Under the pieces are notes generated by a model. It worked only from the letters and a program-made list of their open reading frames with translations, ran no database searches and was not told the DNA's origin. From the NCBI RefSeq assembly GCF_001719125.1, contig NZ_CP017006.1, positions 124,001 to 188,000 on the forward strand: 64,000 nt of DNA, in the 5' to 3' direction. This DNA comes from Sulfolobus sp. A20 (lineage in GTDB: Archaea; Thermoproteota; Thermoprotei_A; Sulfolobales; Sulfolobaceae). Shown piece after piece: positions 2,010 through 58,209 of the stretch (its first letter is position 1; every line of letters starts with the position of its first letter). The translations under genes were made by a program, and so were the position numbers.

Positions 2010-2162
2010 CAAAACATTTTTATGTAAAATATTTAACTGAAGCATTATATTTTAGTGATGTTATGGGTATTTCGTTTTATATAATTTATTTCATACATAG
2101 ATAAACAATAGATATCGAAAATTTTTACATACTCCCTTCTTTTTCAGCTAGAAAATGAACTA

Positions 2163-2456
2163 CAAGCCTAAGCAGTCAAGGTAAAGCTTTTTATTTTCAA
2201 ATAAGGAGTGACATTAGGCAGAGGGAAGTCCAAAAGGGGATTTGGCATAGCATCCCCCTCTCAACAGATATCCTTGAGTCTTAAGGATAGCGGAGTGGGT
2301 AAAATGGCTGAAGACTTGTCCATTAGTCTACTAATAGATTAGAGGAGTGGGCACTCAAGCACGCTAGCTATGAAGAGATGAGGATAAAGGTGGTAAGTCA
2401 TAAACCTATGAAATGATTTAAGGAAAACTCATCCTTTAGGATGGAGAGGAGGTAAC
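2163..2456 (+). mobile_element. Non-autonomous IS200/IS605-like element, copy A (degenerate)
   Basis: This stretch is similar to the inverse of 8390-8679 and 10912-11199. Shared blocks include CAAGCCT and GGTAAAGCTTTTT at the left end, the interior GTCTTCAGCCATTTTACC and CTTCATAGCTAG (both as read on the minus strand), and a right end with CTTTAGGATGGAGAGGAGGT. The ends resemble those of the broken tnpB element at 56686-58028. No intact reading frame remains. It fills the gap between the RHH gene and the MFS gene, and nothing else is seen there. Confidence 0.6.
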
Positions 2457-4892: not shown

Positions 4893-5027
4893 ACTATATA
4901 TACGGAACTTAAACTTATTATTTTTACTAGGATTAATGAGTAATGATATATTAATATATGAATATAACTATCAAAACATCTTTTGATTGTGAATTTAAAA
5001 ATCAACTAACGATACAAAAGAAAAAGA

Positions 5028-6293
5028 AAGCCTCGCCCTTTAGGTGAGGATGAAAAGTATATAAACCCCTTTCCTTTACCCCTTTATTATGAGTAGAGGG
5101 ACTAAAAAGATTGGGTTAGAAATCAGAGCTACAGTTTGAAGATTTCCCCCTACCTCCCCTCTGCTCAGCCTTGTCTCTAATTATGAAAAAGGCCTACGTT
5201 ATGTCCTTAATTGGTAAGAGAGAACAAGCCAAAGAGGTTATTAAAAGACACTCATAAGGGTACTTACAAAACACTAAGGCAAAAGTTTAATCTACCGTCA
5301 AAGGTTGCCGTAGACTGTAACAGAAACGCTATAGCAATATACAAGTCGTGGTTGAAGAACTCCAAGCGTGGTAAGTATCCAGTAGTAAATGAGGGTATCT
5401 GTCTGGTTAACACCAGAACAATCATATTCCATTGATTTCGATAAAATGAGTGTAAGGAAAATAGGAGTTGGTGAAATACCAATACTAGGCTATCCAAGGA
5501 GCTTGTCAGAATACAAGGACTGAGAAATGAGAGAGGCTAGGCTATTGCTAAAGGAAGGCAAAGCGTACTTAACGGTCACTCTTCTAAAGGAATGGAAGGA
5601 ACCAGAGGCTAAAGACGGTGTCGCAATTGATATTAACATGGCTGAGGTAGTTGTTGGTAAAGACGATGAACAGTACGTTAGGATACCCACAAGATTAGAG
5701 GATGCTCATCATTACAAATCATTAGCTGAGGGCTTACAGAAGAAGTATGAGAAGAGGTGGAAGGAGAATAGAAGGATCCTTAACAGAATTAGGTCATACC
5801 ATAAGAAGGCTAAAAACATCTTAGAGGACTCTGCAAAAAAGGTGGGTAAATGGGTTATTGATACAGCTAAGTCGTTTAATATTTCTGCTATATTCCTCGA
5901 AGACCTCAATAACCTAATTAAAAATGTGAAGAAATTGCCCTCTGAGTTTAGAAATAAAAACTCTATCTCATGCAGTACCGTAGGATTCAATACTGGATTG
6001 AGTGGCAGGCTAAGAAGCATGGGCTAAAGGTTGTTTATGTTGACCCTCATTATTCCTCTACCCATTGCCCAAAGTGCGGAAAAGAAATGGAAGAAGTAGC
6101 TTATAGGTATTTTCATTGTATAAAGTGTGGTTATGAGAATGATCGTGATGTTATTGCAGTCATGAACCTCTATGGTTCTCTGAGCCTCTCGACATATGAG
6201 AGATGTAAGCACGAATCGATGAAGGAAAAGGGGAGGAAGTCAGATTTAGCTAACGGATTAATTAACAAAGGAAAAGCAAGCTTAGTCCTTTAA
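5028..6293 (+). pseudogene. tnpB: Broken tnpB (IS200/IS605 OrfB) with left-end hairpin
   Basis: The left-end hairpin CCTCGCCCTTTAGGTGAGG is at 5031-5049. TnpB-like protein segments then follow in changing frames: residues from an ATG near 5183 (MKKAYVMSLIGKREQ), then 5211-5435 (LPSKVAVDCNRNAIAIYKSW), then 5527-6027 (DGVAIDIN, the RuvC-I Asp region, and IFLEDLNNL, the RuvC-II Glu region), and finally 5970-6293. The last segment holds a CPKCGKEM...FHCIKCG zinc ribbon and [11 protein letters not shown], the RuvC-III Asp. Several frameshifts and in-frame stops (for example TGA at 5521) show that it is dead. TnpB is an RNA-guided nuclease of IS200/IS605 elements. No tnpA is seen. Confidence 0.85.
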
Positions 6294-6349
6294 GGAGTTG
6301 GGTAAAAGTTTTTTAGTGTAGAAGTGGTATTTAGCTGACTTTTCCTCTC

Positions 6350-6374
6350 CACCCTAAAAGGCGAGGCTTTCCTC
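6350..6374 (-). repeat. IS200/IS605-type end hairpin (solo)
   Basis: CCACCCTAAAAGGCGAGG followed by CTTTCCTC is the minus-strand version of the left-end hairpin found at other tnpB-type elements in the window. It lies between the end of the first tnpB relic and the truncated second one, so it marks another insertion or recombination junction. Confidence 0.5.
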
Positions 6375-6379
6375 AACTT

Positions 6380-6719
6380 TATAAGCTCAAAAAAGCGTTA
6401 GCTGAGCCTAGAACCTTTTTGTACTTTTCATAATACTTGTCCCAAGTGTCCTTAAGATCCACTCCCTTATGTTGGAAGAACTGCTGTCTTCTCTCGTAAT
6501 TGATTTCGTTTCACAGTTTTGCTGATGCGTTTACCAGCTTTATTTTCTTCTGTTGGTAACCATTAGGGAATAGTCTAACAAGGATTGTACGGACACTCCC
6601 TTCTGATATTGCGGGAGAGAGTTCCCGCTCCTCATCTTCTTGAAGTTGACCAGAAGGGAGTGCCATAGGAAAAGTTAGAAAAGATTAAAAGCTTATACCC
6701 TCAAAAAGTGAGGTTTGCC
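6380..6719 (-). pseudogene. tnpB: 5' fragment of a second tnpB, with left-end hairpin
   Basis: Read on the minus strand from an ATG at 6666, the translation starts MALPSGQLQEDEERELSPAI and continues with VRTILVRLFPNGYQ, NEINYERRQQFF and DTWDKYYEKYKKVLG. This is closely similar to the N-terminus of the broken tnpB at 56744. A stop (KL*NEINYE) interrupts it, and the copy is cut after about 95 codons. Its left-end hairpin (CCTCAAAAAGTGAGG, imperfect) is at 6699-6714. Only the start of the gene survives. Confidence 0.8.
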
Positions 6720-8275: not shown

Positions 8276-8389
8276 TTTATAAACCTATATTCCGTAAATA
8301 TAGAACTCACTTCTAAGATATTGAGAAGATCTAGATTCTTACCTTAATGCTTTTTATTAACACTGAATTGCTAGTCAAAGACTAAATTC

Positions 8390-8679
8390 TGACCTCCTCC
8401 CCGCTCTAAAGGTTCCCTTAGAGCGGTTCACAAGTTTACCGCCTTTACCACTTCATAGCTAGTGGGCTTTAGAGCCCGCTCCACTCGTCCAGCGATAGCT
8501 AGGTCTTCAGCCATTTTACCACTATCTCTTGGGTAGAGGAGCCCCCACTCCACCCTCCTCGAGACTTGGGGATATGTACTGAGGAGAAGGGACACGTTCT
8601 CATTACTTTTTCCTTCCCTCCTCCCCAATGATCTTCCTTCACTTAAAAACTTTACCCCGCCCTAAAGGGCGAGGCTTGT
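8390..8679 (-). mobile_element. Non-autonomous IS200/IS605-like element, copy B
   Basis: On the minus strand the element starts with CAAGCCTCGCCCTTTAGGGC (a perfect-stem hairpin) and GGGGTAAAGTTTTT. It ends with CTTTAGAGCGGGGAGGAGG and TCA. Left and right ends therefore match the broken tnpB element at 56686-58028. The interior carries a 66-codon frame (8428-8628, MGRREGKSNENVSLLLSTYP onward). It is conserved with copy C but is probably the tail of a former tnpB, or part of its overlapping guide-RNA region, rather than a free gene. No transposase is encoded. Confidence 0.7.
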
Positions 8680-8766
8680 CCTTCCTTTGTCAGTTAGTTT
8701 AAAGGATATATTTAAGGTTTATATGTTTTGCAAAAGTTTTAAAATTGGAGATCTTAATAATGAATA

Positions 8767-10173
8767 ATGACAGAAAATATTGAAATACGCTCTCCTTCAA
8801 ATTTGAAAGTTATCGGAACAGTTAAGAGGATGAGTAAAGATGAGGTTAGGGGAGAGATAGAAGAAGCTTATAAGGGGTTTGAAGAGATCTCAAAGATGCC
8901 GTTATACAAGAGGACAAATATCTTAAGAAAAGTTTCGGAGATCATAGAAAGGGAACAAGAGAGGTTAGCTAGGCTGTTGGCGACAGAAGCTGGAAAGCCT
9001 ATAAAAGATTCTAGAGTAGAAGTTTTAAGGGCATCCAGATTATTTAGGCAAGCTGCGGAAGAGGCATCGATAGTTTTAGAGGGCAAGAATTATAGGGTAG
9101 ATGCTTATGAGTATCCTCCTGGTAACGAGAACAGGATAGTTATAAGTACTAGAGAACCAATAGGTGTAGTTACTGCTATATTACCTTTTAACTTTCCGAT
9201 AAACTCCTTTGCTCATAAGGTAGCTCCTGCGATAGCTGTGGGCAATTCAGTAGTTGTAAAACCTAGCATAAACACGCCACTATCAGCAATTGAAATGAAA
9301 AAAATTTTAGTTGAAGCTGGACTTCCAGACAGTGCTGTAAGAATAGTCACGGGATATAGCAATGAGATTGGAGACGAGATAATAACGCATCCCTTAGTTG
9401 GATTAATTACGCTTACCGGATCTACGCAAACTGGGCTAAGTATAGCTTCCAAGGCTGTAGCATTAGGGAAAAGGATCATTATGGAATTAGGGGGATCAGA
9501 TCCAATAATAGTTTTGGAAGATGCCAACATAGATAGGGCTTCTTCAATAGCGGTAAGAGCGAGATTTGAATACGCAGGACAAAACTGTAATGCTGGAAAA
9601 AGAATAATAGTAAGGCAGGAGATCGCGGATAAATTCGCTAAAGCATTCTACGAGAAAGTAAAAAGCCTAAGAGTAGGAGATCCATTAGACGAAACTACTG
9701 ACGTAGGTCCAGTTATTAATAGGGAGAGTGTAGAGAAGCTAAATAGTGTATTGGAGGACGCAAAGATTAAAGGAGGTAAGGTAGAAATATTAAACAAGGG
9801 TTCAGATTCTGGATATTTCTTCCCGCTATCAGTCATAACCAACGCAAACTTAGATATGTTAGCGCTAAAAACTGAAGTTTTTGGACCAATTGCACCAATT
9901 GTGAGTGTTAAGAATGATGAGGAAGCAATTAGCATCGCCAATTCAACAGAATATGGTTTGCAATCAGCGATATTTTCCAATGACTTAAATAGGGCTTTAA
10001 AGATAAGCAGACAGTTGAAATTCGGAGCAGTTATAATAAATGATAGTACAAGGTTAAGGTGGGACTCATTACCGTTCGGCGGATTTAAGAAGACTGGAAT
10101 AGGAAGAGAGGGAGTTAGAGAAACCATGATTGAAATGACTGAGAACAAACTAATAGCTATAACACTATTCTGA
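8767..10173 (+). CDS. NAD(P)-dependent aldehyde dehydrogenase
   Basis: 468 residues, full length for the ALDH superfamily, which oxidises aldehydes to carboxylates. FNFPINSFAHKVAPAIAVGN, the cofactor-site GSTQTG, the general-base Glu240 in ELGGSDP and the nucleophile Cys274 in GQNCNAGKR are all present. So are EVFGPIAPI and PFGGFKKTGIGREG. The substrate is not evident. Family members in Sulfolobus act on glyceraldehyde-type, lactaldehyde or semialdehyde substrates. The position near a benzoylformate-decarboxylase-like enzyme (14746) would fit an aldehyde made by 2-oxo acid decarboxylation. A TATA-rich stretch lies at 8707-8725 and a weak GGAGAT at 8747. Confidence 0.9.
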   Translation: MTENIEIRSPSNLKVIGTVKRMSKDEVRGEIEEAYKGFEEISKMPLYKRTNILRKVSEIIEREQERLARLLATEAGKPIKDSRVEVLRASRLFRQAAEEASIVLEGKNYRVDAYEYPPGNENRIVISTREPIGVVTAILPFNFPINSFAHKVAPAIAVGNSVVVKPSINTPLSAIEMKKILVEAGLPDSAVRIVTGYSNEIGDEIITHPLVGLITLTGSTQTGLSIASKAVALGKRIIMELGGSDPIIVLEDANIDRASSIAVRARFEYAGQNCNAGKRIIVRQEIADKFAKAFYEKVKSLRVGDPLDETTDVGPVINRESVEKLNSVLEDAKIKGGKVEILNKGSDSGYFFPLSVITNANLDMLALKTEVFGPIAPIVSVKNDEEAISIANSTEYGLQSAIFSNDLNRALKISRQLKFGAVIINDSTRLRWDSLPFGGFKKTGIGREGVRETMIEMTENKLIAITLF

Positions 10174-10195
10174 CCCTAAAGGGCGAGGGTTTTCT
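10172..10195 (-). repeat. Solo IS200/IS605-type hairpin after the aldehyde dehydrogenase gene
   Basis: ACCCTAAAGGGCGAGGGT directly overlaps the TGA stop of the dehydrogenase gene and is followed by TTTTCTTTTT. It resembles the element left-end hairpin read on the minus strand. The T-run means it could now also serve as a transcription terminator between the two convergent genes. Confidence 0.5.
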
Positions 10196-10202
10196 TTTTC
10201 AT

Positions 10203-10832
10203 CTATAATGACTTATAGAAAGCTACGATCTTTTCAGCATTATGTTCTAATTCTTTTTCATTTCTCTTCACATCATCTACAATGCTAGCATCTCCTCCAT
10301 AATTCTTAACCCATTCCCTTATCATTTCTGAATTCACTTCCAGATGAAATTGTAAACCTAAGATCCTTTTAACTTTAAAAGCCTGGAAATAGTTCCTGTT
10401 GTATGCCAAAAGGACAGCATCTATAGGCAAAGAAAAAGTATCTCCGTGCCACTGAAAGACTAATAACTCATCAGTCTTTAAGAAATTCGATAGCTCTCCA
10501 ATTATCTTGACTTTCTGAACTCCTAACTCAACACCATAGGGGCCTTTAATTACCTTCCCCCCTAAAGCTTCTGAAATTAATTGAGACCCTAAACAAACTC
10601 CTAAAACCCTCTTATTCTGATAATAAGCCTTTCTGATCAATTGCATCTCAGTTTCTAAAAATCCATATTTATCTCTATCATAAACTCCCATAGGTCCTCC
10701 CATAATTACTAGTTCCTCAAAATCCTCATTACCCTTCAGTTCTTCTGCATAAATTTCTTTAACATTATAGAAATATTTTTTAAAAGTTCCTAAAGTCTCA
10801 ATAGGGTGATTATATATTGCTAAAGTTACCAT
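10203..10832 (-). CDS. Class I glutamine amidotransferase-like protein
   Basis: 209 residues forming a stand-alone class I glutamine amidotransferase domain. The triad is complete: Cys80 in GVCLGSQ, then His163 and Glu165 in QFHLE. The MGGPMGVYD loop is typical of GMP-synthase-like stand-alone members (the GuaA_C domain is absent). Such proteins hydrolyse glutamine or gamma-glutamyl compounds, but the acceptor here is unknown. It is convergent with the aldehyde dehydrogenase gene, only 29 bp away. I do not call it guaA, because no synthetase partner is visible. Confidence 0.8.
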   Translation of the reverse strand: MVTLAIYNHPIETLGTFKKYFYNVKEIYAEELKGNEDFEELVIMGGPMGVYDRDKYGFLETEMQLIRKAYYQNKRVLGVCLGSQLISEALGGKVIKGPYGVELGVQKVKIIGELSNFLKTDELLVFQWHGDTFSLPIDAVLLAYNRNYFQAFKVKRILGLQFHLEVNSEMIREWVKNYGGDASIVDDVKRNEKELEHNAEKIVAFYKSL

Positions 10833-10911
10833 ATGTGATATTTACTTAACAAAGTTATTAAATCTTTATAACGTCATCATCCTTTCCCTAATATATACTT
10901 CGTCTACAACT

Positions 10912-11199
10912 TGACCTCCTCCCCTTAGAGGGTTCCCTTAGAGCAGTTCACAAGTTTACCGCCTTCATCACTTCATTGTAGTTGGCTTTAAAGCCCAACT
11001 CCATTTGTCTAGCGGTAGACCAATGTCCGGGTCTTCAGTCAAATTACCACTATCCCTTGAGCGACACTCCACTCTCCTCGGGACTTGGGGATATATATTG
11101 AGGAGGAGGGACACGTTTTCACTACGCTTTATGGCTTCCCTCCTCCCCAATAATATTCCTTCACTAAAAATATTACCCCGCCTTAAAAGGCGAGGCTTT
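10912..11199 (-). mobile_element. Non-autonomous IS200/IS605-like element, copy C
   Basis: This copy is closely similar along its whole length to 8390-8679. Both show the right end TGACCTCCTCCCC, an internal GAGGGTTCCCTTAGAGCAGT stretch, GAGACTTGGGGATAT-type blocks and the left-end hairpin CCCCGCCTTAAAAGGCGAGG. A 60-codon minus-strand frame (10968-11150) repeats ENVSLLLNIYPQVPRRVE and WALKPT of copy B, with indels. Sequence decay at the peptide level suggests that any conserved function lies in the RNA or DNA. Confidence 0.7.
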
Positions 11200-11279
11200 C
11201 CTCACTTTGTAAACATTAGCGCTCAGAGACGAATTGAAAAGAGTCTCACGCATACTTATTGTCTAGGCTTTCAAAGAAT

Positions 11280-32467: not shown

Positions 32468-32817
32468 ATGTAATCCATATTGTTCAATCTTTTAAGCTTT
32501 TCTTTGTATATTAATACTTTTTCCTATTAGCAAAATAATGAGGAATTCATAACACCGCTGTAATTAAGTTGAATGAAATATTAGATATGACTCATGTATT
32601 CTGATTCTTTATAATATATATAGAAAATATAATAGCATGATAGACATGATGCAGTATAACAAAAAACATAGTTAAGGAGTACGAACCAGCGTAAAAATAA
32701 TTCTGAAACTTTTCCTAACCTAAAAGCTTAAGTCAAAATAACTTAGCGGAAATCTGAAAGTTTCGTCGCATATAAAGACGAATGAATCCTCACACGTATT
32801 CTTAAAATTGACTTACT

Positions 32818-32851
32818 GATCTCTTCCCCCCGCCTTAAAAGGCGAGGTTTG
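32818..32851 (-). repeat. Fused-end solo hairpin of the IS200/IS605-like family
   Basis: GATCTCTTCCCCCCGCCTTA followed by AAAGGCGAGGTTTGTC reads on the minus strand as the left-end hairpin joined straight to the right-end sequence GGAAGAGATC. It lies in the 766-bp gap 32468-33233. That gap otherwise holds a very AT-rich tract (32930-33120) and the 56-bp motif listed next. I see no gene there. Confidence 0.6.
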
Positions 32852-33132
32852 TCGCTCTTTCTATCACTGCTTAATTATGAATTATAGTAAAATCTATTAT
32901 TTAAATACATGACTTAACTTTTCTATCTTCCACTATTTTTTATATATTTGTATTATTATAAAATAAAACTATTATTATTATAATATTTATAGATATATTT
33001 TATTCTTTTTCATATTAAGATAGTCTTATATTATAATATTTTTGTAATTATGATAAATATTAATATTAATATTTTTAATGTACAACAATAAAATTAGTAT
33101 TGTAAAAATATAAGGAAGAAAAGTTAACTCAA

Positions 33133-36252: not shown

Positions 36253-36443
36253 TAGGTTATTATACACAATATATCTTTTAAAATTTTTGTAAATTTCGCT
36301 TAAGTAAATACTAGTTTATAAGAAGGAAGTCATTTTAAGTTAATTGGTAGATCTTTTGAATTTAATTTTATAAAAATTTTAAAATATTTGTGAATCAAGA
36401 AGGAAATGTTAAACGCTATAAGGTTCTACTAACAAAGGAAGGA

Positions 36444-36475
36444 CAAGCCTTGCCCTTCAGGGCGGGGAGGAGGTC
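36444..36475 (+). repeat. Fused-end solo hairpin of the IS200/IS605-like family (best preserved)
   Basis: CAAGCCTTGCCCTTCAGGGC runs directly into GGGGAGGAGGTCA. The left part equals the left end of copy B and of the tnpB element at 56686, while the right part equals the right end at 58015-58028. The whole element interior is missing. A degenerate neighbour of the same kind is at 37690-37710 (GCCTTTAGGGAAGGAGGTCA). Confidence 0.65.
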
Positions 36476-36513
36476 AGCTCTTCCTAAAGGGCTTAGATTC
36501 TGTCTTTCCTTTA

Positions 36514-56594: not shown

Positions 56595-56685
56595 GAGAAT
56601 CAGAGAACCTTACAAAACTGGAATTATACATCGTAACCCAAGGTGCATAATGAAAAATATCCTAACGTTTCATGATAAAGGAATG

Positions 56686-58028
56686 TCAAACCTCGCCTTT
56701 TAAGGCGGGGTAAAAGTTTTTAAGACAAAACATCCTTTCTCTCATGAAACTCCCTTCTGGTCAATCTAATAAAGACGAGGAGCCAATTTCTCCCGCAATA
56801 CCAGAGGAGAGTGTAAGAACTATAGTTGTTAGACTATTCCCTAACGGATACCAAGAAAGAAAGTTAGCAGACATAACTTCTAAAATGTGGAACGAGATCA
56901 ATTACGAGAGAAGACAACAATTCTTCAAAAGAGAAAAAGTAGATTTCAAGGGTACTTGGGACAAGTATTATGAGAAGTATAAAGGTGTATTAGGCGTTAA
57001 TGCACAAGCAGTATTGCAGAAAAACAATTGAAGCTTGGTAATCATTCTTTTCATTGTTGAAAAAGCCACCCTTCATCCAACGTGTTTCGCTACCTGGTTA
57101 CTGGAAAGAAAATGAGAAGAGAAAGCTTATTCTCGTTGTTAGGCAAGATCATTATGAGGTTGATGAGGAGAGACACGCAGTAATGCTGAAGGACTGGAAG
57201 ATGGAAATGCCCTTTGTGGGCAAATTAGGATGGTTTGGTGTAAAAGGAAGGCTAGAGACACATATCGTCGACAATAAGTTCTACGCTTCCATACCAGTTG
57301 ACGTTAGTGGAATAATTTCGAAGAAGAGTAATAAGCCAATGAAGGATTCCCTCATCATTCACGGTGAGAGGGACAAAATACAAATAGCCATTCCTAAAGG
57401 TGACAAGACAACGTCAATTGACCTTGGTATAAACATGTTGGCTACAGTTGTCATGGATGATGGTACTGTACTTTTTTACCGTGGTTCCATAGTTAAGAGT
57501 GACTACTTTTATTTTCGGAAGAGGGTGTGTGGACAACAATTTAGTTGATATAAATTGAATTTTCTTTATCGTGGAAAAGTATTTTTAGGGTGAGGGCGAG
57601 AATGTGTTTGATTTCTTAGCACTTAACTCAACGAGAAACACAATAGCAAAATAGCTGAAAATATTCTTCCACAATATACTCTAAATCCATCGCATAAGTA
57701 AAAAATTTACAGTTGGACGAAATTGTTGTCCACACAAAATAAGTTCTACGAGTATATGGTATAAAGGTTTTCTTTGTTGTAGAGTATAATACTTCTAGGC
57801 TTTGTGCTTATCATGAAGTAGAGGTGGTTAGGAGACCTAGGGGAGTTATTAATTTATCTCATAAGCTTCACAGCGATGTTAATGGTGCTTTGAATATTTG
57901 GAGTAAGGAAAGTCGTAAACGGGTTGAAAAAGCCATATCTTTCTTTATCTCTTCAAACGGAGTAACTCCTATAAAGGGGAGTAACGCTTTAGACCTTGGC
58001 AAAACCCTTTAGGGCGGGGAGGAGGTCA
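56686..58028 (+). pseudogene. tnpB: Broken tnpB element (IS200/IS605 type) with both ends preserved
   Basis: The left-end hairpin CCTCGCCTTTTAAGGCGGGG is at 56691-56710, and the right end CTTTAGGGCGGGGAGGAGG at 58008-58026. Between them the TnpB N-terminus (56744, MKLPSGQSNKDEEPISPAIP) frameshifts near 57030 into LLKKPPFIQRVSLPGYWKEN and on to TTSIDLGINMLATVVMDDGT (RuvC-I). A 211-bp MITE interrupts it at 57526. The RuvC-II part is deleted, and the C-terminus resumes with YGIKVFFVVEYNTSRLCAYH and HSDVNGALNI. The gene is dead. Its ends are the reference for the non-autonomous copies. Confidence 0.85.
57526..57736. mobile_element. 211-bp MITE with 17-bp perfect terminal inverted repeats
   Basis: TGTGTGGACAACAATTT (57526-57542) and its exact complement (57720-57736) bound the element. 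The first 90 bp match the inverse of the right end of the 19253-19906 remnant (GATATAAATTGA, AAAGTATTTTT, GGGTGAGG), and the last 110 bp match its left end. It is thus an internal-deletion derivative of that transposon. It is inserted in the tnpB relic. Confidence 0.8.
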
Positions 58029-58209
58029 GTGTACTTGGATAATGGCGTAGAAAGAAAGGCAATCTTTCATTTTCTTTATAACGTTTTTATACCATATAAC
58101 GAGAATAATTAATGTAGAGATATATTATAATTTATTCATATTTCATAGACACATGACTTATTCATAATCTGTTTTTGAATACTATGGTTAAGATAGAGAA
58201 AAAAGGACA

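Follow-up and report, generated by a model that had tools for sequence, protein, structure and literature searches.

Three Miniature Elements Lie Between Genes in the Window

The stretch of DNA analyzed here (the window) comprises 64,000 nucleotides, positions 124001-188000 of the single 2,688,317-bp contig of the Sulfolobus sp. A20 genome. Three intergenic miniature elements were located in it: copy 1, which is decayed, at 2149-2456 (+), copy 2 at 8389-8692 (-), and copy 3 at 10911-11212 (-). These coordinates include the tetranucleotide at the 5' target position, which is TGAC (8689-8692) beside the body of copy 2 (8389-8688) and is represented by the target-equivalents TTAC (11209-11212) in copy 3 and TAGA (2149-2152) in copy 1. 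All three copies carry a left-end (LE) and a right-end (RE) hairpin, both subterminal and matching the autonomous element, and RE-like sites occur three times within the window against 0.02 expected. Copy 2 also lies just in front of an aldehyde-dehydrogenase-like gene, which is encoded on the other strand.

Read from its left end, copy 2 consists of the LE hairpin (CCTCGCCCTTTAGGGCGGGG, 8655-8674, -), a TATA-like TTTTTAA (8643-8649, -) preceded by GTAAAG that is a possible archaeal promoter, a hairpin termed P1 (8579-8628, -) that corresponds to one spanning the tnpB zinc-finger codons, an omegaRNA-like core corresponding to the tnpB tail past RuvC-III (8436-8578, -), and the RE hairpin (8401-8426, -), with the RE terminating at 8389 (GGAGGTCAG). 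Both end hairpins were assigned from the sequence and the core from its match to an RNA model. The same model delimits the cores of copy 3 (10956-11097, -) and copy 1 (2265-2396, +), and P1 of copy 3 (11098-11150, -) is 14 bp long and paired throughout.

The initial annotation of the window had described three copies of about 290 bp (+, -, -) with both end hairpins and without a transposase or TnpB domain. The copies, their hairpins, and their right ends were found as described, and the multiple copies contain no transposase gene; the left ends had been placed about 10-15 nt too short. The end hairpins are also common to a broken solo-tnpB element at 56673-58029 (+), as had been noted for 56686-58028, but the core is not. 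We rejected this tnpB as the parent of the core, as it belongs to another, solo-tnpB subfamily and its 3' end is not where the core came from. At 57528-57560, the broken tnpB is disrupted by an IS end, TGTGTGGACAACAATTT, which likewise disrupts the RE of another miniature copy (L002). Additionally, solo-type tnpB fragments are present at 5026-6640, with an LE-like site at 5026, a TnpB C-terminal domain at about 5976-6170, and segments in inverse orientation to 56774-56995.

The Core Derives from a tnpB 3' End of the ISSis2 Type

A search of plasmids yielded intact tnpA-tnpB elements on pHVE14, where the element is annotated as ISSis2 family, and on pMGB1, the matches falling on the 3' end of tnpB and on the RE. 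In the alignment, the core begins right after the RuvC-III codons (DLNGAINIL) and extends to the RE, comprising about 200 nt of ISSis2-type tnpB past RuvC-III together with the RE, and is preceded by the zinc-finger codons. Across the seven genomes examined first (G000, G010, G012, G020, G022, G023, and G030), the part that was kept begins at reference positions 1609-1624, with a variable left junction, and ends at the RE; a few alignments extend further upstream, into the zinc-finger part. Stops interrupt the tnpB frame in 22 of 34 miniature copies compared to two of 22 tnpB elements. Because the frame is broken, we regard the core as conserved at the level of nucleotides and not of peptide, in agreement with the initial annotation, which had judged the interior to be kept more as nucleotides.

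It is well supported that the core descends from the omegaRNA/reRNA region, which comprises the 3' end of tnpB and the RE. The possibility raised earlier that the core might be unrelated to the 3' ends of intact tnpB elements does not hold, as the alignment identifies it as such a 3' end. The proposal that the elements kept exactly the guide-RNA part stands for the tnpB 3' end and RE, but was too narrow: the zinc-finger hairpin and a promoter-like LE were kept as well.

Related arrangements were observed elsewhere. At L076 (1495-1795), a 270-bp element of the solo-tnpB type keeps the LE, the tnpB 3' end, and the RE, a deletion of the same kind in a second TnpB family. Two loci encoding divergent TnpBs (41-43% identity; L256 2786-2938 and L265 2041-2174) have the guide-RNA core motif CCCCGAGTCCC...GGGATAGGGGTAATGGGCTGAAGACCCAGCCC in common with the miniature family.

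tnpB 3' Ends and Miniatures Share a Covarying RNA Structure

A secondary structure was first proposed from one copy and then counted on 21 tnpB elements. In these 21 tnpB 3' ends, 95.9% of cells are paired and 11 pairs have changed on both sides; the covariation score was reached in none of 500 shuffles, and sliding the structure along the alignment lowers it far below. A covariance model (R1) built solely from the 21 tnpB 3' ends, with no miniatures included, recovered copies 2, 3, and 1 of the window (E = 3.4e-25, 8.6e-24, and 1.4e-12, respectively). When the same structure was applied to 51 miniature cores, 90.9% of cells were paired vs. 85.3 ± 0.5, double changes were found in 19 of 37 pairs, and the double-change test counted 91 cells vs. 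34 ± 4.7; because the underlying alignment (A3) was made to fit the model and the copies share ancestry, we take these values as support and not as proof. A large part of the covariation seen between miniature lineages may be a legacy of the tnpB elements from which they arose. The folding of the core with covariation analysis suggested in the initial annotation thereby yielded a covarying structure in both tnpB ends and miniatures. RNAalifold detected weak structure on a plain MAFFT alignment, which is explained by that alignment not being structure-aware. A search of Rfam gave no match.

P1, a 14-bp stem over the tnpB zinc-finger codons, is paired throughout in 21 of 22 tnpB elements. The miniatures have lost the RuvC-III codons between P1 and the tail, and in several of their lineages the arms of P1 differ while pairing is retained; in the G012/G020 lineage, the P1 region is arranged differently. 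If the miniatures do act as guide-RNA genes, the guide RNA of ISSis2-type TnpB may already begin at the zinc-finger codons. Most copies, as well as autonomous elements, contain a GTAAAG-TTTTTAA-like sequence past the LE hairpin, about 20-45 nt before P1. Sequence and spacing fit an archaeal promoter, but the region is AT-rich, and we consider a promoter in the LE possible.

Miniature Elements Are Widespread and Insert Next to TGAC

The RNA model of the tnpB 3' end matches 21 places in the window's genome, which accordingly has at least 21 core-bearing places. blastn with copy 2 returned 41 matches in this genome, about 20 of which extend into the core, the rest including end-only forms. Of the 31 Sulfolobaceae genomes, at least 13 contain relatives, among them, beyond the seven examined first, G003, G009, G011, G014, G019, and G029; the RNA model matches 108 places in 23 of the 31. 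One further copy was found on a contig of Caldisphaera, which belongs to another order (Acidilobales). Core-bearing copies span a narrow length range of 250-373 bp. The Sulfolobus sp. A20 genome has been described as carrying nine IS elements, of which eight belong to IS200/605, with MITEs unmentioned (PMC5127849), and our literature search, chiefly outside subscription journals, returned no description of guide-RNA-bearing MITEs of Sulfolobales.

Evidence for movement comes from G030 (2,694,756 bp), where nine nearly identical miniature copies of 356-358 bp, all retaining the core, occur beside seven tnpA and seven tnpB genes of the ISSis2 type. Empty sites in close relatives define the ends of the elements, with the RE at GGTCAG, and place six miniature and two autonomous insertions of G030 directly 3' of TGAC without target duplication; some relatives have TGAT or TGGC at this position. 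The TGAC insertion rule is well supported for the family. Since miniature and autonomous elements insert identically, it is strongly implied that the same TnpA moves both. Mobilization in trans, as the initial annotation had suggested, is supported by the identical empty sites of both element types in relatives, but the window's genome has no TnpA. Empty sites for the window-genome copies were sought within the genus and none were found, these genomes being too diverged.

Core-less forms were also observed. A 48-bp derivative at 36430-36477 (+) consists of the LE fused to the RE, and a second terminal-only derivative at 32816-32866 (-) has a TGAT-type left end. Such 48-bp fusions occupy 33 places in 10 of the 31 family genomes, including six in the window's genome; none were found in G030, where miniatures were recently amplified. 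They resemble the 52-bp terminal-only PATEs that PMC3119063 describes in its account of Haloquadratum, and may be either scars left by deletion or mobile elements of minimal size. Their existence suggests that the core is dispensable for an end-to-end element.

Miniatures as a single clade were rejected in the core tree (AU test, P = 0.00016), where well-supported branches force at least four changes between miniature and autonomous labels. The separate miniature lineages all retain the same segment. Either miniatures arose several times or cores were exchanged with autonomous elements; core identities between miniature and autonomous elements are compatible with both.

Copies in the Window's Genome Decay Almost Neutrally

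Neither a Y1 transposase TnpA nor an intact ISSis2-type TnpB was found in the window's genome. An intact cognate TnpB is present in G012, G022, and G030, and a cognate TnpA in G030. Among resident copies of the window's genome, substitution rates are equal in stems and loops (0.150 and 0.158), and singly changed pairs were kept or broken about equally often (48/44), indicating that these copies are not individually under selection. In view of this near-neutral decay and the absence of both proteins, the window-genome copies are best read as relics. The lack of TnpA concerns their current mobility, not their descent. Plasmids pHVE14 and pMGB1 as well as the virus SMV1 carry an intact ISSis2-type element and could supply the missing enzymes.

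Miniatures Probably Retain a TnpB Guide-RNA Part

We propose as the probable explanation that the elements are non-autonomous, MITE/PATE-like members of the ISSis2-type IS200/IS605 group which retain the guide-RNA part of tnpB, are moved by TnpA, and would guide TnpB in trans. The data above show descent, anatomy, structure, and insertion site; transcription, TnpB loading, and retention are inferred in the following manner. The LE with its promoter-like sequence, the zinc-finger-codon hairpin, the tnpB tail as guide-RNA scaffold, and the RE are the parts kept, and TnpA of autonomous relatives would have moved the miniatures, inserting them 3' of TGAC. With ISSis2-type TnpB present, as in G030, a miniature would be transcribed as an omegaRNA whose guide is provided by the flank beside the RE (in copy 2, the sequence below 8389). 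This omegaRNA would load TnpB in trans and target the empty TGAC-guide site, i.e., TGAC joined to the sequence that follows GGTCAG, and such targeting would help the miniature to persist after excision. In the window's genome, which has neither protein, the copies are relics if no plasmid or virus supplies the enzymes. We regard guidance of TnpB in trans as plausible.

The strongest alternative, which we nevertheless consider unlikely, is that the miniatures are passive deletion derivatives in which the tnpB 3' end was spared together with the RE, the RNA structure being a leftover of tnpB without a role. The near-neutral decay within the window's genome fits this explanation, as does the one-off deletion at L076, where another TnpB type likewise kept its 3' end. 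Passive deletion accounts poorly for the retention of the same segment by miniatures that are not monophyletic, for a P1 rebuilt by paired changes once the coding constraint was gone, for the existence of shorter end-only forms, and for the core in every amplified G030 copy.

Considerably less probable is a core kept as DNA, with hairpins or length aiding excision or pasting by TnpA. IS200/IS605 transposition does use single-stranded hairpins, and the length range of core-bearing copies is narrow, but TnpA of known IS200/IS605 elements requires the end hairpins only. Forms of 48 bp exist here, the Haloquadratum 52-bp PATEs are thought to be mobile in the account given by PMC3119063, and the structured part is the tnpB tail, which precedes the guide as in reRNA. 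Domestication as host small-RNA genes or regulators in the window's genome, to which the intergenic position of the copies and the location of 8389-8692 just upstream of the aldehyde-dehydrogenase-like gene could point, is very improbable, as the copies decay almost neutrally, vary at their ends, and occupy scattered positions.

Beyond the proposed retention of a guide-RNA part, we tentatively suggest, at somewhat less than even confidence, that miniatures are mobile guide-RNA genes composed of a promoter, a TnpB guide RNA, and the two ends. Such genes would parasitize TnpA in order to move and TnpB in order to be retained, and would be distributed from Sulfolobaceae to Acidilobales (Caldisphaera), with the guide part repeatedly formed or renewed from tnpB. 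Should this hold, the RNA-guided nucleases that transposons encode have parasites of their own that bear the guide alone, TnpB would serve many loci simultaneously in trans, and the family offers a natural system in which TnpB-driven retention of transposons can be tested.

Comparison with Known Systems

IscB systems include standalone omegaRNA loci away from the nuclease gene, and the miniatures would resemble these as guide loci apart from a nuclease, which is TnpB instead of IscB. The closest relatives are the ISSis2-type elements of pHVE14, pMGB1, and SMV1, which have the LE, RE, TGAC rule, P1, and tnpB tail/omegaRNA in common with the miniatures; tnpA and almost the whole of tnpB are missing from the latter.

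Among non-autonomous elements, SMN1 and SMN2 are "non-inverted repeat" MITEs of Sulfolobus attributed to IS200-type transposases (PMC3718332, PMC3839810) and are in this respect like the present family, SMN1 being likened to it by description alone. Identity with SMN2 (SMV1, pMGB1) was rejected, as SMN2 matches neither the RNA model nor the core; at L267 (33927-34177), SMN2 is a strongly structured MITE unrelated to the miniature family. PATEs of Haloquadratum, notably HqIRS71, are likewise presented in PMC3119063 as non-autonomous derivatives of IS605 that have palindromes near their termini and do not duplicate the target, but have other ends and occur in other organisms, and the sections of that paper on these elements do not treat guide-RNA structure.

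SisTnpB of S. islandicus differs from this family in its target motif, TTTAA, and its right end (PMC10640517, PMC11043419). The reRNA of ISDra2, about 150 nt long and associated with a TTGAT target motif, is made from the tnpB 3' end and RE with a guide from the flank (PMC8612924); the miniature core has the same region of origin and would use a flank guide in the same way, whereas the ISDra2 reRNA is made from an autonomous element.
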